From: an uncultured Oscillospiraceae bacterium
GTDB lineage: Bacteria; Bacillota; Clostridia; Oscillospirales; Oscillospiraceae
NCBI GenBank assembly: GCA_934565415.1
Contig: CAKTHQ010000006.1
Coordinates: 1 to 64,000, forward strand
DNA length: 64,000 nt
Direction: 5' to 3'
Of the stretch, positions 7,273-60,614 are shown in pieces. The notes below the pieces were generated by a model. That model saw only the letters and a list, made by a program, of their open reading frames with translations, was not told where the DNA came from and searched no databases. The translations under genes and the position numbers were made by a program. Position 1 is the stretch's first letter; each line of letters opens with the position of its first letter.

Positions 7273-7470
7273 GAAACCGGAAATTGTCCGTATTTGCCGG
7301 AACTTTTCGCGGATTGACGAAGGGAAAGACCCCGGGACGAAGCAAGGGAGAATTTGCGGATAAAAATCCGCTTTCCGGTATCCGGCTCGCTTTTTTGGAA
7401 ATACGGATAGCAATTCCCGGGGAACTATGGTATACTGGGGGAAAATACAACGCTTCTTCGGAGGATAAGT

Positions 7471-42336: not shown

Positions 42337-42390
42337 CCTGCAGACCCTGTTTTACGGATATTGAGAAGAGTTTTGGTTGGAGAAAGAAAA

Positions 42391-43515
42391 ATGAAAGAAA
42401 AACCCGCAGTGGCGATGTTCGGTCAAAAAAGACTCAGCCGGGAAGGCGGAATCGAGATCGTCGTCAAAGAGCTCTGCACCAGAATGGCCCGGAAGGGGTA
42501 CCAGGTAACCTGCTACAATCGGTCAGGCCACCATATCAGCGGTGCGGAATATGACAGGGAGGCGGAATACGCAGGCGTCTGCCAGAAAACGGTCCCGACC
42601 ATTCAGCGGAAGGGCCTGGCGGCGGTAAGCTCCTCTTTCTTCGGGGCGCTGTACAGCGCCTTCGGAAAGTATGATGTGGTACATATCCATGCGGAGGGAC
42701 CGGCCTTTTTTGCCTGGCTGCCGAAGCTGCTGGGCAAACGGGTGATTGTAACCATCCATGGCCTGGACTGGCAGCGGGAAAAGTGGAAATACGGATTTGC
42801 CTCCAAGTTTATCCGCATGGGCGAACGGATTGCCGTAGGGTGTGCGGACGAAATCATTGTATTGAGCAAGGACATTCAGGACTACTTCCTGGAAACCTAC
42901 GGACGGGAAACCGTTTTTATTCCCAACGGTGTGAGTCGGCCCCAGATACGGGAAGCCGAGCTGATTCAAGAAAAGTTCGGCCTGGAGAAGAATGGCTACA
43001 TTCTGTTTTTGGGCCGCCTGGTGCCGGAAAAAGGGCTCCGCTACCTGGTAAAGGCGTTTCGGCAGGTAAAAACGGAGAAAAAACTGGTCATTGCCGGCGG
43101 CGCCAGTGATACGGCCGCCTTTGCGGGGGAGCTGAAAGCGCTGGCGGAAGACGACGACAGAATCCTGTTTACGGGCTTTGTGCAGGGCCGGATGCTGGAT
43201 GAGCTGTACAGCAATGCCTATGTATATACCCTGCCCTCAGACCTGGAGGGGATGCCCCTGAGCCTGCTGGAGGCTATGAGCTACGGCAGCTGCTGCCTGG
43301 TATCGGACATCCCGGAGTGCACGGAGGTCATCGAGGACAAGGCGTTGATTTTCCGAAAATCGGATGTGGAGGACCTCCGGGAAAAGCTCCAGGAGGCCTG
43401 CGATGAGCCCGCCATGGTGCAGAGATACAAGGACCGGGCGGCGGACTTTATCTGCGGGAAATACAGCTGGGACGATGTGGTGGAAAAGACGGTTGCTCTG
43501 TATGGGAGGAAATAA
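42391..43515 (+). CDS. Glycosyltransferase family 4
   Basis: A 374-residue GT-B enzyme. REGGIEIVVKELC near the N-terminus is the acceptor-side loop, followed by IHGLDWQREKW. The donor part has LGRLVPEKG and the E-x7-E motif in DLEGMPLSLLEAMSYG. It is of the type that adds hexose or rhamnose units to a lipid-linked chain. GGAGAAAG fits the ATG at 42391. Confidence 0.9.
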   Translation: MKEKPAVAMFGQKRLSREGGIEIVVKELCTRMARKGYQVTCYNRSGHHISGAEYDREAEYAGVCQKTVPTIQRKGLAAVSSSFFGALYSAFGKYDVVHIHAEGPAFFAWLPKLLGKRVIVTIHGLDWQREKWKYGFASKFIRMGERIAVGCADEIIVLSKDIQDYFLETYGRETVFIPNGVSRPQIREAELIQEKFGLEKNGYILFLGRLVPEKGLRYLVKAFRQVKTEKKLVIAGGASDTAAFAGELKALAEDDDRILFTGFVQGRMLDELYSNAYVYTLPSDLEGMPLSLLEAMSYGSCCLVSDIPECTEVIEDKALIFRKSDVEDLREKLQEACDEPAMVQRYKDRAADFICGKYSWDDVVEKTVALYGRK

Positions 43516-43517
43516 AA

Positions 43518-44717
43518 ATGAAGGTTTTGATGATTAACAAATTCCTGTATCCCAACGGCGGGTCGGAAACCTATATATTCAAGCTGGGTGAGGCCCTGGA
43601 GCAGCATGGACACGAGGTCCAGTATTTTGGCATGGAACACGAGGGCCGCTGCGTGGGCAACCGGGTCAATGCCTATACCGGCGACATGGATTTCCACGGC
43701 GGCAGCAAGCTTGCCAAGCTGACCTACCCCATCAAGACGATCTACAGCAGCGAGGCCCGGAAGAAGCTGCGGCTGGTATTGGACGACTTCCAGCCGGATG
43801 TGTGCCACCTGAACAACTTCAACTACCAGCTGACCCCTTCCATGATTCTCGAAATCGTAAAGTGGCGGAAAGACACCGGGCATGATTGCAAGATCGTCTT
43901 TACGGCCCATGACTATCAGCTGGTCTGCCCGAACCATATGCTGAACAACCCTGTGACCCACGAGAACTGCGAGAAGTGTCTGGGCGGTCACTTCCTAAAC
44001 TGCACCAAGGGCAAGTGCATCCACGGTTCTACCGCCAAGAGCATCATCGGCACCATGGAAGCCACCTTCTGGAAGCTGAACGGCGCCTACAAGTACATCG
44101 ATACCATGATCTGCTGCTCCGAGTTTATGAAGCGAAAAATGGACACCAACCCGCTGTTTGCGAAAAAGACTGTAGCCATGCACAACTTTATCGACAAGGT
44201 GGACTGGAAGGATGTGCAGAAGAAGGACTATGTGCTGTACTTCGGCCGGTTTGCAATGGAAAAAGGCATTGGCACGCTGGTTAAGGTCTGCAAAGAGCTG
44301 CCGGAGGTGCAGTTTGTCTTCGCCGGTACAGGCCCTCTGGAGGACCGGGTGAACGGGGTAGCCAATATCCGGAACGTGGGCTTCCAGAAGGGCGAGGCCC
44401 TGGAAACCTTGATCCGGGAGGCCCGATTCTCCATCTACCCTTCCGAGTGGTACGAGAACTGCCCCTTCTCCGTCATGGAATCCCAGATGTACGGCACCCC
44501 GGTGCTGGGGGCGGACATCGGCGGCATCCCCGAGCTGCTCCGGGTAGGCGAGACCGGTGAGCTGTTCCAGAGCGGGAATGCGGAGGATTTGAAGCGCAAG
44601 ATCCAAAAGCTCTGGGAGAGCAAAGCACTGTGCCAGGAATACAGCGAAAACTGCAAGGGCATCAGCTTTGATACGATTGATGCGTATTACGAAAAGATCA
44701 TGAAGATTTATCGGTAA
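43518..44717 (+). CDS. Glycosyltransferase family 4 with cysteine-rich insert
   Basis: A 399-residue GT-B enzyme that follows the previous gene after two bases. PNGGSETYIFKLGEAL marks the N-terminal loop and YFGRFAMEKG the donor domain, with YENCPFSVMESQMYG as the E-x7-E region. A middle insert has six cysteines in a row of spacings (ENCEKC, LNC, KGKC), which may bind a metal; such inserts occur in some GT4 members. Confidence 0.88.
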   Translation: MKVLMINKFLYPNGGSETYIFKLGEALEQHGHEVQYFGMEHEGRCVGNRVNAYTGDMDFHGGSKLAKLTYPIKTIYSSEARKKLRLVLDDFQPDVCHLNNFNYQLTPSMILEIVKWRKDTGHDCKIVFTAHDYQLVCPNHMLNNPVTHENCEKCLGGHFLNCTKGKCIHGSTAKSIIGTMEATFWKLNGAYKYIDTMICCSEFMKRKMDTNPLFAKKTVAMHNFIDKVDWKDVQKKDYVLYFGRFAMEKGIGTLVKVCKELPEVQFVFAGTGPLEDRVNGVANIRNVGFQKGEALETLIREARFSIYPSEWYENCPFSVMESQMYGTPVLGADIGGIPELLRVGETGELFQSGNAEDLKRKIQKLWESKALCQEYSENCKGISFDTIDAYYEKIMKIYR

Positions 44718-44732
44718 GTAAGGAGGATGGCC

Positions 44733-45746
44733 GTGAGTACAAAGGCGGAGCACTATAAGGGAATCGATGGACTGAAAGCCTACGCCATCATTGGTATTGC
44801 TCTGATGCACATTCTTTCAAATGGGAACTATGCAGTAGGCGGCTTTGTATTTGAACGGCTGATTCCGGCGTTTACAAATCTCGTCTTCCTCTTTATGATG
44901 GTCAGCGGCTTTGGGATGTGCTGTGGCTACTATCAGAAAATTGTGGACCGGGAAATCAGCATGGAGGAATTCTACAAGAAGCGGTATATCAAGATTTGGC
45001 CCTACTTTGCCCTGCTCTGCGGGCTGGATTTGATGGTTTCACCGAGCAAGAATTCCTTGTTTGAAGTTTTTGCCAACCTGACTCTGTGTCAGGGACTGCT
45101 GCCGGATGCCAATATTTCCGTCATTGGCGTAAGCTGGACGCTGGCGGTTATTTTTGTTTTCTATATGCTGTTCCCCTTTTTCTGCTTTTTACTGGGGAAC
45201 AAGAAGCGCGCCTGGGGCGTGGCAACGGCGGCGCTGGTATTCAACTACCTGTGCGGCAGCTACTTTCATGCAAGCAGGAACAATATTGTTTATGACGCAA
45301 TTTACTTTATCGCAGGCGGCCTGATCTTCCTGTATCGGAAGGAAGCGGCCGAATTTGCCCGGGGACATAGGATACTCGCCGGTGCTGTTCTGCTGTGGGC
45401 CACAGTTGCTTATTTTGTACTTGGTGCCTCTACGCTTACCATGTTATTTTTCTGTGTGGCCGCACTTATCTACACCCTCGGATGTAATTGGGGGGGGGGG
45501 GGACTGGTTAACCCGGTTGCACAATTCCTCGGCGGCATCAGCTTCGAGATTTACCTGTGCCATATGGTAATTTATCGTGTGTTTGAAAAAATGCACCTTC
45601 TTCATTTGTTTCGAAATGACTTACTTGCATACGTTTTCGCATCGGTTGGCATACTCTGCGGATCGGTGGCGTTTTCGGTATGCGCAAAGTGGTTCTTAAA
45701 TAAATTGGAAACCTGGATGGGGAATAGGAGAGTTCATCATGTCTGA
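44733..45746 (+). CDS. Acyltransferase 3 family membrane protein with poly-G tract
   Basis: A 337-residue polytopic protein of the Acyl_transf_3 type (GIDGLKAYAIIGIALMH at the N-terminus, with the catalytic-type His region). It probably adds an acetyl or other acyl group to the polymer. AGGAGG sits 6 bases before a GTG at 44733; an ATG at 44727 overlaps that site and is less likely. A run of 13 G (45490-45502) codes WGGGG in the last third; gain or loss of one G would break the frame. Its end overlaps the radical SAM gene by 8 bases. Confidence 0.86.
   Translation: MSTKAEHYKGIDGLKAYAIIGIALMHILSNGNYAVGGFVFERLIPAFTNLVFLFMMVSGFGMCCGYYQKIVDREISMEEFYKKRYIKIWPYFALLCGLDLMVSPSKNSLFEVFANLTLCQGLLPDANISVIGVSWTLAVIFVFYMLFPFFCFLLGNKKRAWGVATAALVFNYLCGSYFHASRNNIVYDAIYFIAGGLIFLYRKEAAEFARGHRILAGAVLLWATVAYFVLGASTLTMLFFCVAALIYTLGCNWGGGGLVNPVAQFLGGISFEIYLCHMVIYRVFEKMHLLHLFRNDLLAYVFASVGILCGSVAFSVCAKWFLNKLETWMGNRRVHHV
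45490..45502 (+). repeat. Poly-G tract (13 G)
   Basis: Thirteen consecutive G inside the acyltransferase gene. The present length keeps the frame open. Confidence 0.85.
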
Positions 45747-46920
45747 AGAAAAGAAAGTAAACGGGACGGTCATTGTTACTTACCGCTGCAATGCCCGGTG
45801 CTCTATGTGCAACCGGTATAAGGCCCCTTCCAAGCCGGAAGAGGAAATCAGCATTGAGACGATTAAAAAGCTGCCGAAGATGTATTTTACCAACATCACC
45901 GGCGGCGAGCCCTTTATCCGTACCGATCTGAAGGATATTGTGCGGGAACTGTACAAAAAGTCTGACCGGATTGTGATTTCCACCAACGGTTTTTTTACGG
46001 ACCGCATTGTGGACCTGTGCAAGGAATTTCCTCAGATCGGTATTCGTATTTCTATCGAGGGCCTGGAACAGACCAACAACGAAATTCGCGGCCTGGAAAA
46101 CGGCTACCAGCGGGGCTATGGCACGCTGAAAAAGCTGCGGGAGATGGGCATGAAGGACGTGGGCTTCGGTATGACCGTCCAGGATAAGAACGCCCCGGAC
46201 CTGGTGCCCCTGTACCGGATTTCCAACGAGATGGGTATGGAGTTTGCCACGGCATCCTTGCACAACAGCTTCTATTTTGTGGAGGCCAAGAACATCATCC
46301 ACGACCGGCCCATGGTTGCCAAGAACTTCGAGAACCTGGTCAACGAGCTGCTCCGCAGCAACAGCCCCAAGAAGTGGTTCCGGGCTTACTTTAACCATGG
46401 CCTCATCAACTACATCTACGGCCAGAAGCGGCTGCTGCCTTGCGACATGAGCTTTGATACCTTCTTCATCGACCCCTATGGCGATGTTATGCCTTGCAAC
46501 GGTACCAAGGATAAGGAAGTCATGGGCAATCTGAACACCCAGAGCTGGGACGAGCTGTGGAACAGCCCCCAGGCCGAGGAGGTCCGCAAAAAGGTTCGCT
46601 GCTGCGACCGGGACTGCTGGATGATCGGTAGTGTAAGTCCGGCTATGCACAAGTATATCTGGAAGCCCGCTTCCTGGGTGCTGGTACATAAGTTCAAGGC
46701 ACTGTTCACCAAGCATCCGTATTCCATGTACGAGCTGAAGATCTGCCGGGACTACCGTGATGGTAAAGTCACCAAAGAGGAGCTGGACAAGTGCAGCACC
46801 TGCGACATGAACTGCGTGGTCAACAACGGCCTGAGCGAGGCAAGTAAGGAGCAGCTGAAGCATAAGACGGGGGAAGAGATCGTGGACGCGGATATTGCGG
46901 AGCAGATGGGGAAGAAGTAA
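45739..46920 (+). CDS. Radical SAM/SPASM domain protein
   Basis: A 393-residue iron-sulfur protein. The AdoMet-binding cluster motif is CNARCSMC at residues 17-24, followed by NITGGEPFIR. The C-terminal half has a SPASM-like cysteine set: CDMSFDTFFIDPYGDVMPC, CCDRDCW and CSTCDMNC. Radical SAM enzymes with SPASM act on peptides, proteins or sugars. Placed inside an exopolysaccharide locus, it may modify a sugar or an aminosugar. No obvious precursor peptide was seen beside it. It is the last gene with GC-rich codon use before the AT-rich block. Confidence 0.88.
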   Translation: MSEEKKVNGTVIVTYRCNARCSMCNRYKAPSKPEEEISIETIKKLPKMYFTNITGGEPFIRTDLKDIVRELYKKSDRIVISTNGFFTDRIVDLCKEFPQIGIRISIEGLEQTNNEIRGLENGYQRGYGTLKKLREMGMKDVGFGMTVQDKNAPDLVPLYRISNEMGMEFATASLHNSFYFVEAKNIIHDRPMVAKNFENLVNELLRSNSPKKWFRAYFNHGLINYIYGQKRLLPCDMSFDTFFIDPYGDVMPCNGTKDKEVMGNLNTQSWDELWNSPQAEEVRKKVRCCDRDCWMIGSVSPAMHKYIWKPASWVLVHKFKALFTKHPYSMYELKICRDYRDGKVTKEELDKCSTCDMNCVVNNGLSEASKEQLKHKTGEEIVDADIAEQMGKK

Positions 46921-46933
46921 GGAAGATAACGAT

Positions 46934-47815
46934 ATGACAGTAACAGTTTTAACCCCTACTTTTAACCGGGGGAGGGTACTGGAAAAACTTTATGAGTCAC
47001 TAGAACGGCAGTCCTGCAAGGATTTTGAGTGGCTTGTAGTTGATGACGGAAGTACTGACGGTACAGACAATTTGATTGCACAGTTGCAAGAGAAAAGCGA
47101 ATTTCCAATACGATATATTTACAAAGGCAATGGTGGGAAACATACAGCTTTGAATGTTGGTGTACAGTCCATTGACAGTGAACTCGTGTTTATAGTTGAC
47201 TCAGATGATGTTGTGACAGAGGATGCAATTGAATCGATTCTAAAGATTCATCAAAAGTATGGTGTACGAGATAATATTTGCGGCTATGCGTTTCTTAGAG
47301 CATTTCCTGATGGAAAAGTCAATGGCAAGAAATTTGATAAGGATGAGCAAATCGGCTCCTATGTTCAGGTGCGTGTAAACGGAAATGATACCGGTGCGGA
47401 CAAGGCTGAAGTGTTTAAAACACATTGCTTAAAAGAATTTCCGTTTCCAGAATACCCAAATGAAAAATTCCTGGGGGAAGACTTGGTTTGGGTCAGAATG
47501 GCCAGAAAGTATGAAATGGTACATATTAACAAGTCTATTTATATAGGAAATTATCTTGAGGGCGGTTTGACGAACAATCGGCGCAAGCATAATATTGCTT
47601 CGCCGATGGGATGCCTACATCGAGCAGAAGAATTTATGGAGCCGGATTTGAATATTCGGTACAGGATTAAAGGCGGGCTTCAGTATATTACATATGGGAA
47701 ATTTGCCGGTTTTGGTGTTAAAGACTTGGTTCGTAAGTCAAAACACAAAATTCTTGCGATGCTGTGTGTGCCTGGGGGGCTGGTGCTGTATTCCAGATGG
47801 AGTAAAATAAAGTAG
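46934..47815 (+). CDS. Glycosyltransferase family 2
   Basis: A 293-residue GT-A enzyme. VLTPTFNRGRVLEKLYESL opens the nucleotide fold, VVDDGSTDGT follows, and FIVDSDDV is the metal-binding D-x-D. GGAAGA precedes the ATG at 46934. Codon use is markedly more AT-rich than in the preceding gene, marking the left edge of the AT-rich block. Confidence 0.88.
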   Translation: MTVTVLTPTFNRGRVLEKLYESLERQSCKDFEWLVVDDGSTDGTDNLIAQLQEKSEFPIRYIYKGNGGKHTALNVGVQSIDSELVFIVDSDDVVTEDAIESILKIHQKYGVRDNICGYAFLRAFPDGKVNGKKFDKDEQIGSYVQVRVNGNDTGADKAEVFKTHCLKEFPFPEYPNEKFLGEDLVWVRMARKYEMVHINKSIYIGNYLEGGLTNNRRKHNIASPMGCLHRAEEFMEPDLNIRYRIKGGLQYITYGKFAGFGVKDLVRKSKHKILAMLCVPGGLVLYSRWSKIK

Positions 47816-47855
47816 AACGGTGCCTGGCAATGGCAAATAAAGGAAAGGCTTTGCA

Positions 47856-48860
47856 ATGGAAAAAGGTGCAAAACAGTACTTTAACGAAATAAATATAATG
47901 CGAGGAATGGCGGTGCTTTGTGTCGTCATCGGACATTCTTTCGATACAACGGAAATGCCTACAGTTCTAGGCTTTATAAAAAGCTTTGTGTATTGTTTCC
48001 ATATGCCAGCTTTCTTTTTTATCAGCGGATTTCTTGAAGGAGAAAAAAGGAGAAGCTCTAGCGAAAAGAAACAGGCGATTATAAAGAAAGCCAAACGACT
48101 AATGATACCGTACTCCTTTTTGACATTCGTTACAGCCTTACTCAAAGTTATATTTGGAGCATTTGCAAGGAATCCACTTAATTATTCTACTCTTGCAGTA
48201 GATGTTTTAATTGGAAGAAACAATCCAAATGGTGGTCTTTGGTTTCTGTATGCTTTGTTTGTTATTTCTATTTTTGGAATCTTATTTGATAGCGTGAGTC
48301 GTACAGTTTTAGCGGGTGTTATGTTTGTGGTATATGTGTTAAACACAGTTGTCTTCAAACAATCCGGCTATATTGTGGGATTTTTCTTCAGCTATGCCTG
48401 GATTTATTTTGCAGGAAGTATTACGAGAAAATATCTTTATGAAAAAATAAAGAATTCCGAACTACTGATGTCGGTAAAAGGAATAGTGATAATAGCGGTT
48501 GTTTCCGTAGGATATATGATGCTTGCGTTTGTTAGAATCTATAAGTCTCAGTCATGGATTTTGGCAACCGCAGTAACCGTTATTGGTGTATTTCTGCTTT
48601 TTGCTATTGCCGTGCAGATTGAACATTACCATTGTGGAGAAAAGCTGTGGATGGTGCTAGGTGATTATGGAATGGATATATATATGATTGGGTATTATGT
48701 GCAGCAGGCGATTTTTGTTGTATGTGGCAAAATCTTAGGATTTGATTATTTAGTATATGCTTGGTTAATGTTGCTCTTTGGAGTGATAGCTCCGATATTT
48801 CTATCAAAATACATTGTTAGAAAAAGTCGCATACTTTCAATGCTAATTCTTGGGAGGTGA
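47856..48860 (+). CDS. Acyltransferase 3 family membrane protein
   Basis: A 334-residue membrane protein of the OafA/NodX type. INIMRGMAVLCVVIGHSFD carries the conserved Arg and His, with FFFISGFLEG after it, and about ten membrane segments. It is a second candidate O-acyltransferase for the polymer. AAAGGAAAGG precedes the ATG. Its stop codon overlaps the ribosome binding site of the next gene. Confidence 0.88.
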   Translation: MEKGAKQYFNEINIMRGMAVLCVVIGHSFDTTEMPTVLGFIKSFVYCFHMPAFFFISGFLEGEKRRSSSEKKQAIIKKAKRLMIPYSFLTFVTALLKVIFGAFARNPLNYSTLAVDVLIGRNNPNGGLWFLYALFVISIFGILFDSVSRTVLAGVMFVVYVLNTVVFKQSGYIVGFFFSYAWIYFAGSITRKYLYEKIKNSELLMSVKGIVIIAVVSVGYMMLAFVRIYKSQSWILATAVTVIGVFLLFAIAVQIEHYHCGEKLWMVLGDYGMDIYMIGYYVQQAIFVVCGKILGFDYLVYAWLMLLFGVIAPIFLSKYIVRKSRILSMLILGR

Positions 48861-48864
48861 AATG

Positions 48865-50076
48865 ATGAACTATCTTATTTCTGCGTATAGTGTGAATCCA
48901 TACCATGGATCGGAAGATGGTGTGGGGTGGAATTGGGTTTTACAATACGAAAAAAATTATAAAGCAGGAGATCAAATCATTCTTCTTACAAAAAAATATA
49001 ATGAAGAAGATACTCGAAAGGGACTTGAAGAATTTGGAATTAAACACATTGAACTAGCTATCACTGATGTGCCGCTTATTCTAAATTGGTTTAGAGAAAA
49101 GTACTCGATGTTCCATCATATGTACTATATCTTGTGGCAGCATTATGCTTGGAAATGGGTAAAACAGTCAGGTATTAACTTCGATGTGATTCATCATGTG
49201 ACGATGGGAGATTATAGAATACCCGGTGAAATGTCCAAAGCAAAGAATGCAAGAACTATATTTGGCCCAGTAGGAGGGGCACAAATCACACCGGATAGCT
49301 TGAAAATATATGAAAAGAATATAATTACGGCTAAAATCCGCGAGCTAGTTAACGCTTCTTGTAGTGTAAATCCCTTTTATATAAAGAAAATAAGAGCATA
49401 TACAGATGTTATAGCGAGCAATGATGAGACATATCAACAAATTACGCGGATTAGAGGAAAAAAACACACGCAACAGATGGTAGAGCTTGGTATAGCGGAA
49501 GAATATAAAAATCGGGAAATAATTACGAAGCCTGACGGAAAATTGAAAATTCTGTTCTCTGGACGATTGATTGAAAAGAAAGGCGTTGTTTTTTTGATTG
49601 AGGTAATGAATATGTTAAAAGATAAAGTTGATTTTGAATTAAATCTGTGTGGGGGGGGGTACCTTGCCGATACGGTTTCACAACTTATTGATGAATATGG
49701 ATTAAATGATTATGTAAATATGCTTGGAGAAATTCGGCATAATCAAATGATGTCATATTATTACAATGCGGATGTGTTTGTAATGCCATCTCTTCGTGAA
49801 ACTGGCGGGACAGTTTTAATCGAAGCTATGGCATATGGATTGCCTATAGTAGCATTTGATACAAGTTTTTGCACTCAGCTTAAAAGACATAATTGCGGTA
49901 TCTTTGTAGAAACGAACCAGGATATAGGTAAGGTAAAGGCTGATTTTTGCGGCGCTTTAGTGGAATTATCTGGGAACAGGCAATTGTGCTGCGAGCTGGG
50001 AACAAATGGATATAGATATGTAAATGATGAATTAACGTGGGAGAAAAAGTATAATTCGATTTTTGAAACCGCGTAA
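48865..50076 (+). CDS. Glycosyltransferase family 4 with poly-G tract
   Basis: A 403-residue enzyme. NPYHGSEDGVGWNW near the N-terminus and SLRETGGTVLIEAMAYG as the E-x7-E region define GT-B type 4. It is paralogous to the next gene over its full length; both begin MNYLISAYSVNPY. A run of nine G (49651-49659) codes Gly-Gly-Gly in the donor domain, where the paralogue has GDG without a G run. GGAGG precedes two adjacent ATG codons (48862, 48865); the second matches the paralogue. Confidence 0.88.
   Translation: MNYLISAYSVNPYHGSEDGVGWNWVLQYEKNYKAGDQIILLTKKYNEEDTRKGLEEFGIKHIELAITDVPLILNWFREKYSMFHHMYYILWQHYAWKWVKQSGINFDVIHHVTMGDYRIPGEMSKAKNARTIFGPVGGAQITPDSLKIYEKNIITAKIRELVNASCSVNPFYIKKIRAYTDVIASNDETYQQITRIRGKKHTQQMVELGIAEEYKNREIITKPDGKLKILFSGRLIEKKGVVFLIEVMNMLKDKVDFELNLCGGGYLADTVSQLIDEYGLNDYVNMLGEIRHNQMMSYYYNADVFVMPSLRETGGTVLIEAMAYGLPIVAFDTSFCTQLKRHNCGIFVETNQDIGKVKADFCGALVELSGNRQLCCELGTNGYRYVNDELTWEKKYNSIFETA
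49651..49659 (+). repeat. Poly-G tract (9 G)
   Basis: Nine consecutive G in an AT-rich gene, in frame as three Gly codons. Confidence 0.8.
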
Positions 50077-50171
50077 ATTCTAAAGATTTACTACCCTTTA
50101 TGATAATGCTATCTACGAATAAGGTGATTCTCGTTACATGTGCTTCCGTGTTTTTAGGAACGGAGGCAATA

Positions 50172-51380
50172 ATGAATTATCTTATTTCTGCATATAGTGT
50201 GAACCCTTATAAGGGTTCAGAGGATAGTATTGGTTGGAATTGGGTTTTACAGTACGAGAAAAACTATAAAGAAGGAGATAGAATAATCCTTCTTACTAAG
50301 AAATTCAATGAGAAGGACACGAGAAGAGGTCTCAAAGAATTTAATATACAGCATGTTGAATTGGCTATTCTTGATGTCCCTAATGCACTTAACTGGTTCA
50401 GAGAAAAGCATTCCGCTTTTCATCATATGTATTATATTTTATGGCGGCATTGGGCATGGCTTTGGGTTAAACATTCAGGAACCCGTTTTGATGTAATCCA
50501 TCATGTTACTATGAATGATTACAGGATTCCAAGTGAGATGTATAAAGCTAAAGGTGCAAAGGTGATTTGGGGACCAATGGGTGGTGCACAGGTCACACCT
50601 AAGCCATTGAAGGCCTATGAAAAAAATCAATTTGCTGCTGCATTTAGAGAATTTGTTAATAAAAGCTGTTCATGGAATCCATTTTATAGAAATGCCATCA
50701 AACAGTATAAGGCTATTTACTGTATTAATAAGGAAACACAAATTCAAATAGAAAAAATAGTTGGTAAAAGCGTAGAATTGCTGCCAGAATTGGCTCTGAG
50801 AGAAGAGTATAGAAATATAGATTATTTTAAACGGAATAATCAAACTTGCAAAATAGTTTTTGTCGGAAGGTTAATCGGGAAAAAAGGAATTGCATTTTTA
50901 GTTGATGCTTTAAGTTATATGCCAAATGATCTGTCTTGGAAATTGGATATATATGGAGATGGAGCGGATCGAGAAAGTATTGAAAAGAAAATAGAAAATA
51001 GTGTTGTGGCAAATCACATAAATCTTTTGGGAAATAGACCTTTGAATCAAATATCAGAAGCTTATAAGACAGCGGATATTTTTGTTCTTCCTAGCTTGAG
51101 AGAAACAAGTGGTAATGTATTACTGGAAGCAATGGCATATGCAGTGCCAATCGTTGCATTTGATACAAGTTTTTGCAGTCAGTTAAAAGAAGTTGGTTGC
51201 GGCATTTTTGTAAATACAGAACAGACGCTTGATAATATTAAAGCTGATTTCTGTAATGCGATTGTCACATTGGGGCAGAACAAAGAATTGGCGAAACAGC
51301 TAGGCCAGAACGGTTATAAATACGCAAACGAAAAATTAACATGGGATGAGAAGTATAAAATGGTTGTTGAAACTATATGA
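50172..51380 (+). CDS. Glycosyltransferase family 4 (paralogue of preceding gene)
   Basis: A 402-residue enzyme with the same motifs as the upstream paralogue (NPYKGSEDSIGWNW; SLRETSGNVLLEAMAYA). More than half of the positions look identical by eye, which implies tandem duplication and divergence, perhaps to add two similar sugars. ACGGAGG precedes the ATG at 50172; an in-frame ATG at 50100 lacks such a site. No poly-G run is present. Confidence 0.88.
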   Translation: MNYLISAYSVNPYKGSEDSIGWNWVLQYEKNYKEGDRIILLTKKFNEKDTRRGLKEFNIQHVELAILDVPNALNWFREKHSAFHHMYYILWRHWAWLWVKHSGTRFDVIHHVTMNDYRIPSEMYKAKGAKVIWGPMGGAQVTPKPLKAYEKNQFAAAFREFVNKSCSWNPFYRNAIKQYKAIYCINKETQIQIEKIVGKSVELLPELALREEYRNIDYFKRNNQTCKIVFVGRLIGKKGIAFLVDALSYMPNDLSWKLDIYGDGADRESIEKKIENSVVANHINLLGNRPLNQISEAYKTADIFVLPSLRETSGNVLLEAMAYAVPIVAFDTSFCSQLKEVGCGIFVNTEQTLDNIKADFCNAIVTLGQNKELAKQLGQNGYKYANEKLTWDEKYKMVVETI

Positions 51381-51444
51381 TTTTGGCATTTCTCATAAGA
51401 TATAGGGATGGTTGTTTAGTAGGTACATCTATGAGGAGCTTGGA

Positions 51445-52497
51445 ATGAATCAAATGATTAAATTTAGTGTAGTGTTACCAATTTACAATGTGGAAAAATA
51501 TTTGAATAGATGTCTTGATAGTGTCATGAATCAGACATATGAAAATCTGGAGATAATTTTGGTTGATGATGGCTCTCCAGATAACTGCCCCCTAATAAGT
51601 GATGAGTGGGCAAAGGTTGATAACAGGATTAAGGTTATACATAAAATAAATGCAGGTTTAGGTGAGGCAAGAAATTCTGGATTGGATGTAGCAACAGGAG
51701 ATTATATTTGCTTTTTCGATAGTGACGATTATATCGATAAAAGATTGTTTGAAGAAGTATATAATACTATAATTGCTGAAAAACCTGATTTGATTGAATT
51801 TGGTCGGCATAATGTTGATAAAAATGGAAATATTACAGAAACTTTTATTCCTAAAACTGCATTAGCAAAATATGAGGGCAAAGAGGTTATGGCGAAATTC
51901 TTGCCCGAACTGATATGTACAGATCCGAAAACCGGTATAGCAAGCGATTTGCTGATGAGTGCATGGTGCTGTTTGTATCGAAGACAGCTTTTGGTGGATT
52001 GTAAATTCCATTTTGTATCAGAAAGACAATATATTAGCGAGGATGTTTACTCTTTAATGGAGCTTATGCCTAGTGTTCATAGCGTTTGCATTGTAGAGAA
52101 GGCGTATTATTTCTATTGTGAAAATGGTGAGTCGCTTACACATGTATATAGACCGGATCGATTTGAAAAGCTGGTTGATTTTCAACAGAAATTGGAGTTG
52201 TTGTGTTCGTCAGATCTTTACAGCGATGAAGTAAGATATAGAATCAAAAGACCATTTCTGGATAATTTACTTGCCTGTATGAAAAGTGAAGTTGGTTGTA
52301 TGAAGGAAATTGGCTTTAAAGAAATCTACAAGTCAATTTCCCAAATATGCAACGATGGCATGGTTCAGGAAATTGTAAGAGCTGTACCTGGAACCAGCTT
52401 TTCTAAAGTAAGAGGAGTCATCCATTATTGTATAAAGCAGAAGTTGAGCTTAAGCGTTATAGCGCTGATACAGTTCCAGCAGTTTTTAGGGAGATAG
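51445..52497 (+). CDS. Glycosyltransferase family 2
   Basis: A 350-residue GT-A enzyme of the capsular type. SVVLPIYNVEKYLNRCLDSV opens the fold, with LVDDGSPDNCP, GLGEARNSGLDVA and the metal-binding FFDSDDY. GAGGAG precedes the ATG at 51445. The C-terminal 150 residues have no recognised motif. Confidence 0.9.
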   Translation: MNQMIKFSVVLPIYNVEKYLNRCLDSVMNQTYENLEIILVDDGSPDNCPLISDEWAKVDNRIKVIHKINAGLGEARNSGLDVATGDYICFFDSDDYIDKRLFEEVYNTIIAEKPDLIEFGRHNVDKNGNITETFIPKTALAKYEGKEVMAKFLPELICTDPKTGIASDLLMSAWCCLYRRQLLVDCKFHFVSERQYISEDVYSLMELMPSVHSVCIVEKAYYFYCENGESLTHVYRPDRFEKLVDFQQKLELLCSSDLYSDEVRYRIKRPFLDNLLACMKSEVGCMKEIGFKEIYKSISQICNDGMVQEIVRAVPGTSFSKVRGVIHYCIKQKLSLSVIALIQFQQFLGR

Positions 52498-52502
52498 AGG
52501 GC

Positions 52503-53795
52503 ATGCGAAGAGAATTGTTTATTATAACGCCTAAAAAGTGCATAAATTGGATATTATATGCATGTGTTTTGTTTTCGGCAGCGTATAGTTTGTTTGGAGT
52601 CAGCCTTTCGACTTTCTATATATGTGATATTTTAAATTTGATTCTATTTTATTTTGAAATGAAGCATATAAAAGAGATTCGAAAAGAATGCGCACCGCTC
52701 ATCAATATTTTGACAGCCCTTCTGCTCTCTTTGATGATCGGTGCATGTATAAATTTGGTAAAACTGCCACTGATTTTTTGGGGCTTGAGAAATTTGGGCC
52801 GCTATTTCATTATTTTCTTTGGAGTAGTATTTTTCTTTACACTTGACGATGTTGAAAGGGTTATCCGGTTCTATTTTAAAGCGCAGATATTTAACGCTAT
52901 TGTTGGGTTATATAAATATTTTATCCTTGGACTGTTTAGTGATGATTTTGGCGGTGGTATTTTTTGGGGTGGCGGTGGACTAAATCCATTTTGCTTGCTG
53001 CTGCTTTGCTATTATGTGAATCTCTATTTTAGAAAAAAAACAACATTCAAAAAATTTGTGTTTATTGTAGCCGCTACGTTTATGCTCGGAGCAATGGCTG
53101 AGGAAAAAATGATGCTAATGCTGGCGGTCCTTTGCATCTTGCTGTCGGTAATAATCAATCAGTATATTGAAAAAGGATTAACGGTTAGAAAACTTGCTAT
53201 ATTGCTGGGAATATTGGTGGGGTTCGTTGTTGCTATTTATGCGGTCAACCGTTTGGCACCAGATATGCTAAGTATTCTTCTAAACAAAGAGAATTTTATG
53301 AATTATGCGACTGCTACCTTTGATGAAGGCTACCGGATCCCTAGAGTTGGATCTTTTAAAGTGATTAATAGTTTATTCCTGAGAACACCGATTAAAAAAT
53401 GGTTTGGGCTGGGGATTGGAAATTGTGACACATCTGCTTTTTCCTTCCTTCAAAGTGATTTTTATAGGATGTATGGCGATTATAATTACCGGTGGTTTAC
53501 AAATCAGTGGACATATTTGGAGTGCGGAATTTTGGGGTTTGGCCTCTATTTGCTTTTTTTTGTGACGCTAATTATTACACTGTTTAGTAAGCTGAAAAAA
53601 TATCCTAGGATATGCCAGCCATATATGATAATGAGTGCTGTTTATACCATTGCGATGATTGGTTTGATGTGGCATAGTTCAGCAATTAAAGTGGATACAG
53701 CCTATTTGATTTATTTCGGTATGGCGATTGGGCTTGTGGCCATGAAGTGTGTACACAAAGGGATAGAACGGGGGAGCGATAAAAAGTGGGCTTAA
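52503..53795 (+). CDS. Wzy-like O-antigen/polysaccharide polymerase
   Basis: A 430-residue protein with ten or more membrane segments and one larger loop in the second half (about residues 270-360), the usual plan of Wzy polymerases. Such proteins are poorly conserved; identification rests on topology, size and locus. It would join repeat units on the outer side of the membrane. The ATG at 52503 follows GAGGG. The last 10 bases overlap the acetyltransferase gene. Confidence 0.75.
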   Translation: MRRELFIITPKKCINWILYACVLFSAAYSLFGVSLSTFYICDILNLILFYFEMKHIKEIRKECAPLINILTALLLSLMIGACINLVKLPLIFWGLRNLGRYFIIFFGVVFFFTLDDVERVIRFYFKAQIFNAIVGLYKYFILGLFSDDFGGGIFWGGGGLNPFCLLLLCYYVNLYFRKKTTFKKFVFIVAATFMLGAMAEEKMMLMLAVLCILLSVIINQYIEKGLTVRKLAILLGILVGFVVAIYAVNRLAPDMLSILLNKENFMNYATATFDEGYRIPRVGSFKVINSLFLRTPIKKWFGLGIGNCDTSAFSFLQSDFYRMYGDYNYRWFTNQWTYLECGILGFGLYLLFFVTLIITLFSKLKKYPRICQPYMIMSAVYTIAMIGLMWHSSAIKVDTAYLIYFGMAIGLVAMKCVHKGIERGSDKKWA

Positions 53796-54505
53796 AGGAT
53801 ATTGTAAGGAAGGCTGCTTATGGATATAAAGCGGAATCATCATCATATATTCGACATTTGAGATCAGTAGGAATGAAGATTGGGGATGACTGCATTATAT
53901 ATGCTCCGACAAAGACATTGATTGATGAACAATACCCCTGGATGATCACGATTGGAGACCATGTGCGAATTACTGAAGGCGTAAAAATATTGACGCACGA
54001 CTATTCGTGGTCAGTGCTCAAAAATTACCGGGGGGGGGTATTTGGAGCCAGCGGCATTGTTGAAATTGGCGATAATGTGTTTATTGGAATGAATGCGATT
54101 ATTGAAAAAAATGTCAGAATTGGAGACAATGTTGTAATTGGTGCAGGAAGTGTAGTGACAAAAGACTGTTCCCCGAACAGTGTGTACGCAGGTGTACCGG
54201 CGCAGAGAATTATGAGTATTGATGAGTTTTTCGAAAAGCGTTGCTCGAGGCAAAAAGCTGAAGCCAAGGAACTAGCAATAAAATACCACGAGCGGTTTCA
54301 AAGAAGACCTGGTCAGAGCATCTTCCATGAGTATTTCATGTTGTTTGAAACATATGACAGTGCGTTGCAGAACAATATATTTACGGATAAACTTCAACTG
54401 GGCAATACTCAAAATCTCTCAATTACATATATGAAAGAACATTCTCCTGAATTTTCAAGCTATGAAGAATTTATGAGGTATTGTTTTAATGAGGAACCAA
54501 ACTAG
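53786..54505 (+). CDS. Left-handed beta-helix acetyltransferase with poly-G tract
   Basis: A 239-residue protein whose middle part has hexapeptide repeats (GIVEIGDNVFIGMNAIIEKN, VRIGDNVVIGAGSVVTKDCS) and the end VYAGVPAQRI, typical of sugar O-acetyltransferases. A region of about 80 residues after the helix is not recognised. It starts with GTG and overlaps the polymerase gene. A run of nine G (54030-54038) codes R-G-G early in the domain, so slippage would remove the catalytic part. Confidence 0.85.
   Translation: MGLKDIVRKAAYGYKAESSSYIRHLRSVGMKIGDDCIIYAPTKTLIDEQYPWMITIGDHVRITEGVKILTHDYSWSVLKNYRGGVFGASGIVEIGDNVFIGMNAIIEKNVRIGDNVVIGAGSVVTKDCSPNSVYAGVPAQRIMSIDEFFEKRCSRQKAEAKELAIKYHERFQRRPGQSIFHEYFMLFETYDSALQNNIFTDKLQLGNTQNLSITYMKEHSPEFSSYEEFMRYCFNEEPN
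54030..54038 (+). repeat. Poly-G tract (9 G)
   Basis: Nine consecutive G in an otherwise AT-rich acetyltransferase gene, currently in frame. Confidence 0.8.
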
Positions 54506-55463
54506 AGAATGTGTATTGATTTTACCGTATTTCGGAGAGTTTAATAATTATTTTCCATTGTTTCTTAAGTCGTGTGCGTTAAATCCTAAATACACATGGA
54601 TGATTTTTACGGATAATCAATTTGGTTATGAGTGCCCCCAAAATGTTCATGTGATAAAAACCACATTGGAAGACATACGGAATAGTGCAAATGCAAAATT
54701 TGAATTCGATGTGTCGCTTGATTCCCCCTATAAATTGTGTGACTATAAACCGGCATATGGATTTATTTTTGAAGAATATATAAAGGATTACAAATATTGG
54801 GGGCACTGCGATTGCGATTTGCTTTTTGGAAATCTTGAAAAAATGCTAACCCCTTTGTTAAACAAAGGTTATGATAAACTTTTTGCTGCGGGACATTTGA
54901 CACTCTACAAAAATACATATGCTAACAATCGTCGGTTTATGAAACCGCTTGAAGGACGGTATCCATATAAGGAGGCGTTTACAACAAATAAAATTTTTGT
55001 GTTTGATGAAGACTGTAATAACAGCAGCAATGTGCATAAAGTTTTTTCTGAAGATGGAGCAAAGATATACGAAAGTGATTTGAGTATGAATCCGTCAGTT
55101 TTCTCCGCAAAATTTATTCGGGCATTTTATGATGCTTCTCAACATAATTTTGTAAATGAGGAGTATAGGAGAGCGCGATATTATTGGAACAACGGTAGTG
55201 TTATACGAATTGAGTGGAACGGTGCAGAACTTATTCAGACGGAATTTGCATATATCCATCTTCAAATGCGAAAAATGCGTGTTAAAGTGTCTTTAGATGA
55301 TACCTGTTTCGAGATTTTACCGGACAGGTTTGTTAAAAAAGACTTACCGGATAATCGGAGCGATATGGACTTGATGACGGTTGGTTGGCCATATTTGTAT
55401 TGGGTAGATAACTATAGGAAACGGATAAAAAGATTCTATCAGAGAACTTTTGGCAAGCGGTAA
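54489..55463 (+). CDS. DUF6625-like putative glycosyltransferase
   Basis: A 324-residue protein starting ECVLILPYFGEFNNYFPLFL, with a nearby IFTDNQ and a CDCDLLFGN stretch that resembles a metal-binding D-x-D. This pattern is seen in glycosyltransferase-like proteins of capsule loci (DUF6625). The ATG at 54489 overlaps the end of the acetyltransferase gene by 17 bases. The sugar added is unknown. After it, 55464-55552 holds nothing recognisable. Confidence 0.68.
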   Translation: MRNQTRECVLILPYFGEFNNYFPLFLKSCALNPKYTWMIFTDNQFGYECPQNVHVIKTTLEDIRNSANAKFEFDVSLDSPYKLCDYKPAYGFIFEEYIKDYKYWGHCDCDLLFGNLEKMLTPLLNKGYDKLFAAGHLTLYKNTYANNRRFMKPLEGRYPYKEAFTTNKIFVFDEDCNNSSNVHKVFSEDGAKIYESDLSMNPSVFSAKFIRAFYDASQHNFVNEEYRRARYYWNNGSVIRIEWNGAELIQTEFAYIHLQMRKMRVKVSLDDTCFEILPDRFVKKDLPDNRSDMDLMTVGWPYLYWVDNYRKRIKRFYQRTFGKR

Positions 55464-55552
55464 CAACAATACACCATAAACTGGGGTAATCAAATTATTT
55501 CTAATGTAAATATATAAAATTTGACTGGGGAAATAATAGAGGAGAATAGACT

Positions 55553-56365
55553 ATGATACCTAAGGTGATACACTACTGCTGGTTTGGAGGCAACCCGCTT
55601 CCAGAAGATGCGAAGAAATGCATAGCGTCATGGAAAAAATACTGTCCAGATTATGAAATAATAGAGTGGAATGAAAGCAACTATGATGTAAATAGTAATG
55701 CGTATATAAGAGCCGCATACAAGGAAAAAAAGTGGGCGTTTGTATCAGATTATGCCAGAGTAGATGTTCTGTATAAATATGGTGGTGTATATATGGATAC
55801 AGATGTCGAACTTATTAAACCACTGGATAAGTTCTTAAGTCACAGCTTGTTTTGCGGATGGGAATATCGAGATCCGCTGCTGGACAAAAAGAAAGTCGCA
55901 TATGAAAATTCAGTAGCATTTGGTTTGGGATATGGTTCGGAGAAAGGTCATCCGGCATTAAAAGCAATTCTTAAATTATACGATAATATGTCTTTTTATA
56001 ATAAGGACGGGTCTTTGAATTTGATGGCGTGCCCGCATTATCAAACAGAAATATTGAAAAAGTTTGGCTTGGATGACACAAAAAGGACATTTCAAGAATT
56101 AGAAGCCGGAATTGCCGTTTATGAGGAAGATGTTTTTTCACCGAAATCTCCGCTGACGGGAATAATACACATTACGGATGAAACGGTAAGTATCCATCAT
56201 TTTTCGATGACCTGGATAAATGAAAAAGAAAGAAAACTTCAAAATTTGGAATGGAAACTTACAGAACGGTTTGGATATAGTATTGCTCATGGAGTCACAA
56301 AGGTTGCATCGGTGCCGTATAGAATAGAAAAAAAGATAAAGAAAATAGCGGTAAAATCGGGATAA
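55553..56365 (+). CDS. Glycosyltransferase with DXD sugar-binding motif (GT32-like)
   Basis: A 270-residue enzyme. IPKVIHYCWFGGNPLP at the start, SDYARVDVLYKYGGVYMDTD with the metal-binding D-x-D and the late HHFSMTW are typical of the Gly_transf_sug family. GAGGAG precedes the ATG. It belongs to the capsule or exopolysaccharide type of alpha-mannosyl- or galactosyl-transferases. Confidence 0.88.
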   Translation: MIPKVIHYCWFGGNPLPEDAKKCIASWKKYCPDYEIIEWNESNYDVNSNAYIRAAYKEKKWAFVSDYARVDVLYKYGGVYMDTDVELIKPLDKFLSHSLFCGWEYRDPLLDKKKVAYENSVAFGLGYGSEKGHPALKAILKLYDNMSFYNKDGSLNLMACPHYQTEILKKFGLDDTKRTFQELEAGIAVYEEDVFSPKSPLTGIIHITDETVSIHHFSMTWINEKERKLQNLEWKLTERFGYSIAHGVTKVASVPYRIEKKIKKIAVKSG

Positions 56366-56431
56366 AGCTCTTTACATGAGAACTGGGCACAAAATGACAG
56401 AAGGAGTTTAGGGCGATAGGCCCCGAATACA

Positions 56432-57874
56432 ATGCAAAAATCACTCGCTAAAAATTCAATTTATAATATTATCTACACGGTTGTCAATATACTATTTCCA
56501 TTTGCAACTTCCATTTATGTCTCGAGGATCCTGCTTCCTGCCGGTGTTGGAAAGGTTGCGTCGGCGCAGAATATTGCATCATATTTTGTGACGCTTGCAG
56601 CTTTGGGACTGCCGTCCTATGGTGTGCGTGAATTTGCAAAGATTCGGGATAGTGAAGCGAAAAAGAACAAGCTGTTTACGGAGCTGCTGCTGCTGAATAT
56701 TGTATCAACAACTCTGGCGGTGGTTGGCTTTTTTGCGCTTGTGCTTGCAAATGCGGGGTTTCACGGAGAATGGGCGCTCTATGGTGTATGTGGCCTTGCC
56801 ATTGTTTTTAACTATCTGAACATTGACTGGATGTATAATGGCCTGGAAGAATACGGCTACATCACCGGCAGGAGCCTGGCAATGAAAGGAATTTCGTTGC
56901 TTGCGCTGTTTCTCTTTGTGAAAACAAGGCAGGATTATGTTGTTTATGCCCTGATTTCGAGTCTGGCAACCGGTGGTAATTACGTTTTCAATGTGATTCA
57001 TTCCAGAAAGTTTGTCAAAATCTGTTTTTCCGGGATTGAACTAAAAAAACATTTGAAACCGGTGCTTCTAATTGCCTGCATTATTTTTCTGTCCAGTATT
57101 TATAATAAGATCGATGTGACGATGCTAAATATGATGGCAACGGATGAGTCCGTTGGCTTCTATTCATATGCCCAAAAGACAGTTACCATGGTTCTTACAA
57201 TGGCAAATGCGGTTACTGCTGCACTTCTACCCAGACTGAGCTACTATTATGAAAATGATCGGGATGGTTTTTACCGGCTTTTGGACAAAGGCTTTCAAAT
57301 CCTTTGCCTGATGACGCTCCCTTTGGCGGTTGGTATGGCTTTGGTAGCATCGCAGACAGTGGAGTTCCTTTATGGAGAGGCCTTCGCACCGGCGGCTTGG
57401 ACTATCCGGCTTATGTGTCCTCTGATTTTAATTAAGGGCTTTGGTGATTTGTTTTGTTATCAGCTGGTTTACAGTACTAAAAGCGAAAAAATCATTTTGC
57501 CTGCGTCGGCTTCTGCATCTATAATCAATGTTATCATGAATGCGGCATTGATTCCAGTTCTATTGCAAAATGGAGCCGTGATTGCATCGGTTATCAGTGA
57601 ATTGGTAACAAATGCCATCCAGTTTATTTATATGAAAAAGAAGGTCCATTTTGGCATTAACTGGAAGGCGCTTGCTACAGGCCTATTGAGTACAGCCATT
57701 ATGTCCGTATGTGTGTTGGGACTTATGGCTCTGAAACTGCCCAATACGATTGGCCTTTTTGTAGAAGTAGGATGCGGGGCACTGGTTTATGTGGGAATCA
57801 ACCTGATGATGAAAAATGCACTGATGTTTGAAATGATTCAAAAGGTCAGAACGAAGCTATTGCACAAACCATAA
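56432..57874 (+). CDS. Wzx-like polysaccharide flippase
   Basis: A 480-residue protein with about 12-14 membrane segments. LAKNSIYNIIYTVVNILFPF at the start and the following SIYVSRILLPAGVGKVASAQ match the oligosaccharide flippase family. It moves the lipid-linked repeat unit to the outer side for the Wzy-like polymerase. The nearest good ribosome binding site (AAGGAG) is about 25 bases before the ATG, so initiation is not fully clear. It is the last gene of the locus. Confidence 0.9.
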   Translation: MQKSLAKNSIYNIIYTVVNILFPFATSIYVSRILLPAGVGKVASAQNIASYFVTLAALGLPSYGVREFAKIRDSEAKKNKLFTELLLLNIVSTTLAVVGFFALVLANAGFHGEWALYGVCGLAIVFNYLNIDWMYNGLEEYGYITGRSLAMKGISLLALFLFVKTRQDYVVYALISSLATGGNYVFNVIHSRKFVKICFSGIELKKHLKPVLLIACIIFLSSIYNKIDVTMLNMMATDESVGFYSYAQKTVTMVLTMANAVTAALLPRLSYYYENDRDGFYRLLDKGFQILCLMTLPLAVGMALVASQTVEFLYGEAFAPAAWTIRLMCPLILIKGFGDLFCYQLVYSTKSEKIILPASASASIINVIMNAALIPVLLQNGAVIASVISELVTNAIQFIYMKKKVHFGINWKALATGLLSTAIMSVCVLGLMALKLPNTIGLFVEVGCGALVYVGINLMMKNALMFEMIQKVRTKLLHKP

Positions 57875-59147: not shown

Positions 59148-60614
59148 TTAGTCCCGCTTGAAGATGTCCCGGGTGAAGACCTTGTCCTTTACATCGTCCA
59201 GGCAGCTGTCGTACCGGTTGGCGATGATGCAGCCGGACTGGGCCTTGAACTTCTTCAGGTTGTTGACCACCTTGCTGCCGAAGAAGGTATCCCCGTCCTT
59301 CAGGGTGGGCTCATAGATGATGACGGTAGCGCCCTTGGCCTTGATGCGCTTCATCACCCCCTGGATGGCGGACTGGCGGAAGTTATCGGAATTGGCCTTC
59401 ATGGTCAGCCGGTATACGCCTACCACGGTCTCTTTTTCCTTGCTCTCGCTCCAGCTGTCGTTGGCCTCGTAGCCGCCGGCAATTTCCAGCACCTTGTCCG
59501 CAATAAAGTCCTTCCGGGTCCGGTTACTTTCCACAATGGCGGTCATCATGTTCTGGGGCACATCCTGGAAGTTGGCCAGCAGCTGCTTGGTGTCCTTGGG
59601 CAGGCAGTAGCCGCCGTAGCCAAAGCTGGGGTTATTGTAATGAGTGCCGATCCGGGGGTCCAGGCACACGCCGTCGATGATGTCTTTTGTGTTCAGCCCC
59701 TTGGTCTCGGCGTAGGTGTCCAGCTCATTAAAGTAGCTCACCCGCAGGGCCAGGTAGGTATTGGCAAAGAGCTTGACGGCTTCGGCCTCGGTAAAGCCCA
59801 TAAACAGGGTGGGGATGTCCTCTTTGATGGCCCCCTGCTGCAAAAGAGAGGCGAAAATCTCCGCCTTTTTGCGGCTGGCCCCATCGCAGGAGACAATGAT
59901 CCGGCTGGGGTACAGGTTATCGTACAGGGCTTTGCTCTCCCGCAGGAATTCCGGGCTGAACAGAATATTGTCCGTACCGTACTTTTTCCGGACGGAGGCG
60001 GTGTAGCCTACGGGGATAGTGGACTTGATAACCATGGTGGCATTGGGGTTTACCTTCAGCACCAGCTCGATGACGGCCTCCACGGCGGAGGTGTCGAAGT
60101 AGTTCTTCTTGCTGTCGTAGTTGGTGGGGGCGGCGATGACCACAAAGTCGGCATCCCGGTAGGCTTTTTCCCCATCCAGGGTGGCGGTCAGGTCCAGATC
60201 CTTTTCGGAAAGGTATTTTTCAATGTATTCGTCCTGAATGGGGGACTTCCGCCGGTTGATGAGGTCCACCTTTTCGGGGATAATATCCACGGCGGTAACG
60301 TGGTTGTGCTGGGAAAGAAGCGTGGCAATAGACAGCCCCACATAGCCGGTACCGGCTACGGCTATATTGTAGGCCCGGCCCGGGGCGGACTTGGGGGCGG
60401 GGTCTTCTACATACAGGTCGGTAATTTCAAAGTCCAGGGCCTGAGCCAGGGCCTCCAGCTGCTCGATGGAGGGCTGAAAGGTCTGCTTTTCCAGCTGCCC
60501 GATCATGGATCGGTTGATGCCGGTTTTTTCGGCCAGCTGGGCCTGGGTCAGGCCTTTGGCCTTCCGCCCTGCTTTTACCGTTTGGGCAAGGAGTGCAAAG
60601 GATAGCTTTTTCAT
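59148..60614 (-). CDS. UDP-glucose 6-dehydrogenase with N-terminal XRE domain
   Basis: A 488-residue protein. Residues 8-65 form an XRE helix-turn-helix: [20 protein letters not shown], then [15 protein letters not shown] and [15 protein letters not shown]. After a short Pro/Ala linker, a complete nucleotide-sugar dehydrogenase follows ([20 protein letters not shown], catalytic Cys in [11 protein letters not shown]). It oxidises UDP-glucose to UDP-glucuronate. The DNA-binding part may control its own promoter, where a palindrome lies at 60636-60654. AAGGAGGG precedes the ATG. Confidence 0.9.

Follow-up and report, generated by a model that had tools for sequence, protein, structure and literature searches.

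Poly-G tracts as probable phase-variation switches in the polysaccharide genes of an uncultured Oscillospiraceae bacterium

Poly-G tracts in a polysaccharide cluster

We analyzed a stretch of 64,000 nucleotides from an uncultured Oscillospiraceae bacterium (assembly GCA_934565415.1, contig CAKTHQ010000006.1, positions 1 to 64,000 of the forward strand; hereafter, the window), in which three long runs of G lie within genes of a single polysaccharide cluster. The runs, of 13, 9 and 9 G, sit exactly where the initial annotation had placed them, in frame within open genes, and all reach the length, at least 7-8 G or C, at which homopolymers within an open reading frame (ORF) or promoter are known to slip; no other run of G or C of at least 8 exists in the window. 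All three host genes are ON, i.e. in the frame that yields the complete protein (genes broken at the tract are denoted OFF).

45490..45502, + strand: 13-G tract, acyltransferase codons 255-259 (W-G-G-G-G), ON frame
44727..45746, + strand: membrane acyltransferase, 339 amino acids (aa), PF01757 Acyl_transf_3 (Pfam 2.3e-32)
49651..49659, + strand: 9-G tract, GT4 codons 268-270 (G-G-G), ON frame
48850..50076, + strand: GT4 glycosyltransferase, PF00534 (Pfam 3.8e-32, above the curated cut-off)
54030..54038, + strand: 9-G tract, hexapeptide acetyltransferase codons 82-85 (R-G-G-V), ON frame
53786..54505, + strand: hexapeptide-repeat O-acetyltransferase, PF00132, 239 aa (Pfam 2.2e-14)
50172..51380, + strand: tandem GT4 paralogue without a tract, 57% identical to the tract-bearing GT4, G-D-G at the site
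47839..57660, + strand: right part of the polysaccharide cluster, syntenic in genome G266 (synteny and Pfam)

The acyltransferase matches the PF01757 profile over the domain and is a multi-helix membrane protein. The tract of the GT4, whose listed start is TTG with ATG starts a few codons further in, encodes a glycine loop in the C-terminal domain (solved relatives include 6kih and 5d00), and the contrast drawn in the initial annotation with the tandem paralogue, which has no run at the corresponding site, was borne out. The best solved relative of the acetyltransferase is the galactoside O-acetyltransferase 1kqa. The right part of the cluster encodes an acyltransferase, the GT4 pair, a GT2, a membrane protein without a Pfam match, the acetyltransferase, a DUF6625 protein, a glycosyltransferase and a flippase; this half is AT-rich (GC content 0.35-0.37 at 48-56 kb).

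The suggestion that such runs are not expected from composition held locally and failed for the window as a whole. In a dinucleotide-preserving shuffle of the whole window, 3.78 overlapping 9-G matches were expected and 7 observed; whole-window composition was rejected as an argument since 15 of the 100 shuffles reached the observed count of at least 7. In the GC-richer left part (1-42360), the longest G run does not exceed 6, with 1.5 runs of at least 9 expected in 1-42000, and the AT-rich stretch 47856-57874 carries two G runs of at least 9 compared to the expected 0.02. When synonymous codons were shuffled within each of the 14 cluster genes, which preserves the protein and the codon usage, at least three such runs arose in only 1 of 5000 shuffles.

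Length and frame variation at the acyltransferase tract

A scan of named genomes for the acyltransferase yielded 44 loci. The ACYLTRANSFERASE tract, which is 13 G long in the window, corresponds to runs of 7-10 G in the same loop of nine other gene copies, and the comparison of relatives proposed in the initial annotation revealed both ON and OFF lengths within this range of 7-13 G. Copies broken at the tract loop are those in L003 (C. fessum, 7 G), L005 (8 G, with a second L005 copy also at 8 G), L006 (M. glycyrrhizinilyticus, 9 G), L007 (F. prausnitzii, 7 G), L020 (7 G), L120 (10 G) and L123 (7 G). Among the 52 gene copies compared, 8 of the 10 with a run of at least 7 G are frame-broken, compared to none of the 42 with 6 G or fewer (Fisher p = 6e-8), the two unbroken ones being the window copy and L032 (7 G in another register). 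L120, labelled 'short' in the gene-copy table, was counted as OFF since its C-terminal piece sits in another frame, and L024 and L025 appear near-identical and are not independent. Left out of the 52 were L042 (deleted gene), L121 (the same as L017), L122 (the same as L020), the short or weak matches L043, L044, L078 and L079, and L075, L076, L080, L116, L117, L128 and L129, which repeat L001-L003, L007 or L042.

Proteins show the same variation. Among the best 120 of 1971 proteins in a search scored on acyltransferase residues 60-256, 85 read through the tract, 1 breaks at another place and 34 leave the frame at the tract, 23 of them in one wrong frame and 11 in the other. Because the database is clustered at 90%, clusters rather than cells are being counted. 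Most of the 34 OFF proteins stop within about 35 residues, the exceptions being P0137, in which the wrong frame continues to 321 aa, and P0154, whose sequence stops two residues after the glycines, possibly because the contig ends there. In four of these OFF proteins, the residues preceding the tract are identical to those of an ON protein (240/240), and the ON protein P0091 has OFF partners in both other frames, P0149 (0 differences) and P0160 (1 difference). Tract length therefore differs between close relatives, and both wrong frames, with truncation of the product, occur among natural acyltransferase proteins. Alleles with interrupting codons (R-R-G, R-M-G, R-V-G) occur and are ON, as expected of locked forms.

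Protein P0001, 99% identical to the window acyltransferase, reads W-G-G-G-V-L compared to W-G-G-G-G-L in the window; judging from the protein, the underlying DNA would have a T after 12 G, in place of the thirteenth G. Position 45502, the last G of the 13, is a possible substitution or read error after the run, with the frame unchanged.

In the OFF copies in L003, L005, L006 and L007, the C-terminal frame remains open to the end past the tract, and over the 74 codons beyond it the ratio of nonsynonymous to synonymous divergence (dN/dS) between OFF copies is 0.04-0.11. For L006 and L007, which come from different genera and carry 9 and 7 G, dN = 0 and dS is 0.06 (3 silent and 0 replacing changes). 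The coding sequence past the break is under purifying selection in these OFF copies, i.e. the gene has not decayed. Across 28 aligned sequences, the tract loop contains no invariant residue, and E274, Y276, L277, M280 and E287, all past the tract, are invariant. Because no solved structure matched the acyltransferase, the tract was placed using an AlphaFold2 model (mean predicted local distance difference test score, pLDDT, 80) and hydropathy. In the model, the tract loop (252-262) lies between helices 236-251 and 263-270, and OFF products are predicted to lack helices 263-288 and 298-331, because the tract precedes them.

The glycosyltransferase and acetyltransferase tracts

A near-twin of the window GT4, P0171, is OFF: it is 99.3% identical up to the tract, continues past it with the exact residues of the +1 frame of the window, stops after 14 of these and is 280 aa long. 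P0172-P0174 are ON with the same triple glycine at the site and P0175 is ON with G-W-G, and P0179 (75% identical) is likewise broken at the tract and OFF. Judging by the protein frames, then, GT4 tract length differs between relatives, with one wrong frame observed among natural proteins. The syntenic cluster in G266 has a single such GT4, which is nearest to the tract-free paralogue 50172..51380 (79.7%).

At the ACETYLTRANSFERASE tract of the acetyltransferase, the G266 homologue (77% identical) has 8 G compared to 9 G in the window, both ON. The run is absent from this site in five homologues that are more distant, and a C. fessum homologue, which is OFF, has its 10-G tract some seven codons downstream.

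Poly-G tracts in other genomes and transfer of the cassette

Seven genomes contain 43 distinct tracts of at least 9 G, 1-13 per genome, excluding two contig-end G runs of G002. Seven of the 43 fall inside seven 21-kb loci compared to 0.28 expected (p = 1e-8; the loci were picked by acyltransferase homology and genome sizes were rounded); these tracts are in L002, L003, L006 and L042, with none in L001, L005 or L007. Polysaccharide-type genes harbor 13 of the 43, namely, acyltransferase-3 (four), FrhB-like (four), hexapeptide (two), GT2 (two) and Wzy-like (one) genes. Eleven of these 13 were assigned by Pfam, of which two, the Wzy-like gene and a 90-aa acyltransferase piece in L097, score under the curated cut-off; the GT2 of L111 and the L115 gene were assigned from their identity to labelled twins. 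Pfam was run on 20 gene pieces of the 43 tracts, and the rest were read by eye.

The tract-bearing acyltransferase belongs to a cassette delimited by DNA comparison with related loci:

42375..46927, + strand: exchanged cassette GT4-GT4-acyltransferase-radical SAM/SPASM

The longest matching pieces of this cassette show 78-82% DNA identity in L001, L003, L005, L006 and L007, 75-81% in L002, 77-82% in L042 and 70-73% in L004, which are Faecalibacterium/Lachnospiraceae-type loci. The polysaccharide loci L001 (Faecalibacterium) and L002 (Hominifimenecus) have 8 kb in common at 98.1% DNA identity, an identity level that points to recent transfer between lineages and to movement of the cassette between them. 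The right part of the cluster (47839..57660) is syntenic in G266 in two long pieces, with 82% and 75% DNA identity. The 3.4-Mb genome of G266 has two tracts of at least 9 G, one of them inside the syntenic cluster; the gene with the 13-G tract is missing from that cluster, where tblastn at 1e-8 gave no match to the acyltransferase. In the syntenic cluster L145, there are further acyltransferase-3 genes at 6403-7369 and 17326-18132, with 10-G and 8-G runs, respectively, both broken at the run.

Of 14 acyltransferase relatives assigned to Bacteroidales, six carry 9-10 C (once 9 G) at most 100 bases before the matched start, close to or at the gene's 5' end, and 3 more carry 7 C. Judged by frame, L023 and L014 look ON and L022 looks OFF. 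The carriers of the longer tracts are L014, L021, L022, L023, L029 and L030; the L021 contig starts inside the tract.

Probable slippage-driven switching and alternative explanations

We consider it highly probable that the tracts are contingency loci, that is, random on/off switches produced by poly-G replication slippage (phase variation), such as Campylobacter and Neisseria have. Four observations support this reading: all three frames occur in near-identical acyltransferase alleles, the GT4 has an OFF near-twin, the breaks fall at the tract, and purifying selection persists beyond it. The excess of tracts in the 21-kb loci and the occurrence of locked alleles also speak for it. The runs are real, and the core of the initial interpretation, poly-G phase variation, is right for the acyltransferase and the GT4 and likely right for the acetyltransferase. 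The replicating polymerase would slip on the run and gain or lose a G, and an out-of-frame length would end the gene early, such that an OFF acyltransferase would lose its last long helices, an OFF GT4 its donor-binding part and an OFF acetyltransferase most of its beta-helix, until restoration of the length again gave the full enzyme. The surface polysaccharide would thereby gain or lose acyl and acetyl decorations and one sugar in a random, heritable and reversible way, and selection by phage, immunoglobulin A (IgA) or the niche presumably favours this. Slippage as the cause and reversibility within a strain are what we infer from these patterns, and the substrates of the enzymes from their families. 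The 'up to eight forms' of the surface polymer proposed in the initial annotation would be an extrapolation from three independent switches, and if the GT4 adds a backbone sugar, switching it OFF could leave no polymer at all instead of an altered one.

Several points weigh against switching. The evidence comes from assembled genomes and database proteins, and G-tract lengths in databases can be wrong, as reported in the study of bifidobacterial pili (PMC9187656); the 13 G of the window may itself be 12 G plus T. By whole-window composition alone, the runs are not unusual and could be due to chance. L032 is ON despite its 7 G, and L001, L002 and L004, with interrupted or short runs, are all ON. 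No OFF allele was found at the acetyltransferase's own site, and so the switching of this third gene is presumed. Poly-G is not confined to polysaccharide-type genes, given that 30 of the 43 tracts lie in other genes, are intergenic or are unclear. Finally, the acyltransferase is patchily distributed, with matches, at the cut-offs used, in 5 of 31 Faecalibacterium-genus genomes (two of them over most of the gene, at about 80%) and 13 of 397 genomes of the C. fessum family; that it was not found among 250 genomes sampled from the G972 family shows little.

Among the alternatives, programmed or leaky ribosomal or transcriptional slippage, whereby OFF lengths would still yield some full-length enzyme and the gene would be tuned rather than switched, is unlikely. 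It accommodates the purifying selection past the tract in OFF copies equally well, and a catalogue of frame transitions conserved in prokaryotes has been described (PMC3711429); however, it neither requires nor explains near-identical alleles in all three frames, and the tract sites shift between homologues. Because selection past the tract fits recoding too, it could coexist with slippage switching.

We regard as quite improbable the possibility that poly-G was miscounted in sequencing or assembly and the frame breaks are not present in the organisms. It is documented that G tracts can be miscounted and that 'G's end' reads arise (PMC9187656), and the discrepancy between the window and P0001, together with the runs of 18-20 G with which G002 contigs end, suggests that artefacts occur. 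Yet the OFF state recurs across many assemblies, including named isolates in which the run is a mere 7 G (e.g. F. prausnitzii APC923/51-1, coverage 653), tract and break recur across about 45-83% protein identity, and OFF proteins are found in large clusters (265 members for P0161 and 199 for P0136). Equally hard to sustain is the view that the tract is a mutational hotspot inactivating genes that are no longer needed. The many OFF copies among the single-genome records (8 of the 10 above) and the L042 acyltransferase, which has lost about 0.5 kb internally, would fit gene death, whereas a dN/dS of 0-0.11 past the break between L003, L005, L006 and L007, with C-terminal pieces open to the end, and the coexistence of near-identical alleles as ON and OFF do not. 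Least credible is a chance origin, i.e. functionless glycine-rich codons in a G-rich context: it agrees with the whole-window shuffles but not with the local expectation or the synonymous shuffles, the G run recurs at the acyltransferase site even though its glycines vary and no column there is invariant, and the coincidence of the frame breaks with the tract already contradicts it.

Relation to known systems

Among gut commensals, surface variation is best known from Bacteroides, whose capsules are switched by invertible promoters. The present case resembles this switching as random variation of a commensal surface polysaccharide and differs in that single enzymes would be switched by slippage rather than whole loci by DNA inversion. 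In the Campylobacter phasome, as described in PMC6321876, where the cut-off was at least 7 G, G runs are mostly of 9-10, mostly within ORFs and on the coding strand; the tracts analyzed here are similar in lying within ORFs and in their ON/OFF states by frame, and many Campylobacter poly-G genes modify surface structures (PMC6097035). Unlike the Campylobacter genes, those described here belong to another phylum, the tracts of at least 9 G are fewer per genome (1-13 in the seven genomes), and switching is predicted from sequence. The sortase-dependent pili of Bifidobacterium breve UCC2003 were found by maximum-depth sequencing to switch ON and OFF by poly-G slippage (PMC9187656), which is likewise an in-frame poly-G in a Gram-positive gut commensal, although it involves pilus genes in Actinobacteria rather than acyltransferases and glycosyltransferases in Clostridia-type bacteria. 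In C. jejuni, Cj1295 contains a homopolymeric tract and modifies the flagellin glycan (PMC3068675); it is comparable as a surface-glycan-modifying gene, but the glycan is protein-linked and the host an epsilonproteobacterium, as opposed to an exopolysaccharide here.

Among the matches listed, no title or abstract opening in the open literature reports homopolymer phase variation in Faecalibacterium, Lachnospiraceae or other Clostridia, which is not proof of absence and agrees with the initial remark that the mechanism is rarely noted in Clostridia. Thus, the mechanism is known, and the host group and the acylation-centred, transferable gene set appear to be new. A broader proposal, to which we would give an even chance, is that gut Clostridia (Faecalibacterium, Lachnospiraceae and other Oscillospirales) possess a largely unrecognised poly-G phasome acting on polysaccharide-decorating, above all acyltransferase-3, genes, that genes and tracts have been horizontally transferred between families, and that the Bacteroidales relatives independently gained a 5' poly-C (once poly-G) switch. 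If so, gut commensals in general would use the O-acylation of their surface sugars as a contingency trait, the phasome would help explain why strains differ in IgA binding, colonisation and sensitivity to phage, and switchable genes would appear in assemblies as split or truncated.

Further tracts and other genes of the window

In Faecalibacterium, tracts of 10 and 11 G at L095:3033 (G006) and L087:3012 (G001), respectively, lie shortly after TTGACA and before TATACT- and TAAACT-like boxes, an arrangement like that of promoter-spacer phase variation in Neisseria; L081, L082 and L091 have comparable C/G10 tracts in short intergenic regions. In F. prausnitzii, an 11-G/C tract at L094:3009 immediately precedes a gene for a Gram-positive pilin (PF16569, PF17802). 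The G9-10 tracts in FrhB-like (PF04432) genes come from four genomes (L096:12653, L099:3087, L104:4831 and L111:2999), three of them at the 3' end, and 9-nt C and G tracts occupy the 3' end of hybrid histidine kinase genes in two genomes (L093:3010 and L102:2991).

Within the window, the cluster glycosyltransferase at 55553-56365 matches PF04488 and, more weakly, the TcdA_TcdB profile, which we read as a shared DXD glycosyltransferase fold and not as a toxin. The UDP-glucose dehydrogenase at 59148-60614 has an N-terminal Cro/C1-type helix-turn-helix domain; its homologues in the genus Faecalibacterium align only from residue 78 or later and show at most 84% identity across 31 genomes of that genus. 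At the cut-offs used, the TatD protein of the window reaches no more than 55% identity in 297 genomes sampled from the family of G006 (22 with a match) and 70% in 295 sampled from its order (2 with a match), which makes the host probably a member of Oscillospirales from outside the Faecalibacterium family. The sugar-binding ATP-binding cassette (ABC) protein at 31975-33753 is a single chain of 592 aa with two RbsB-like stretches.

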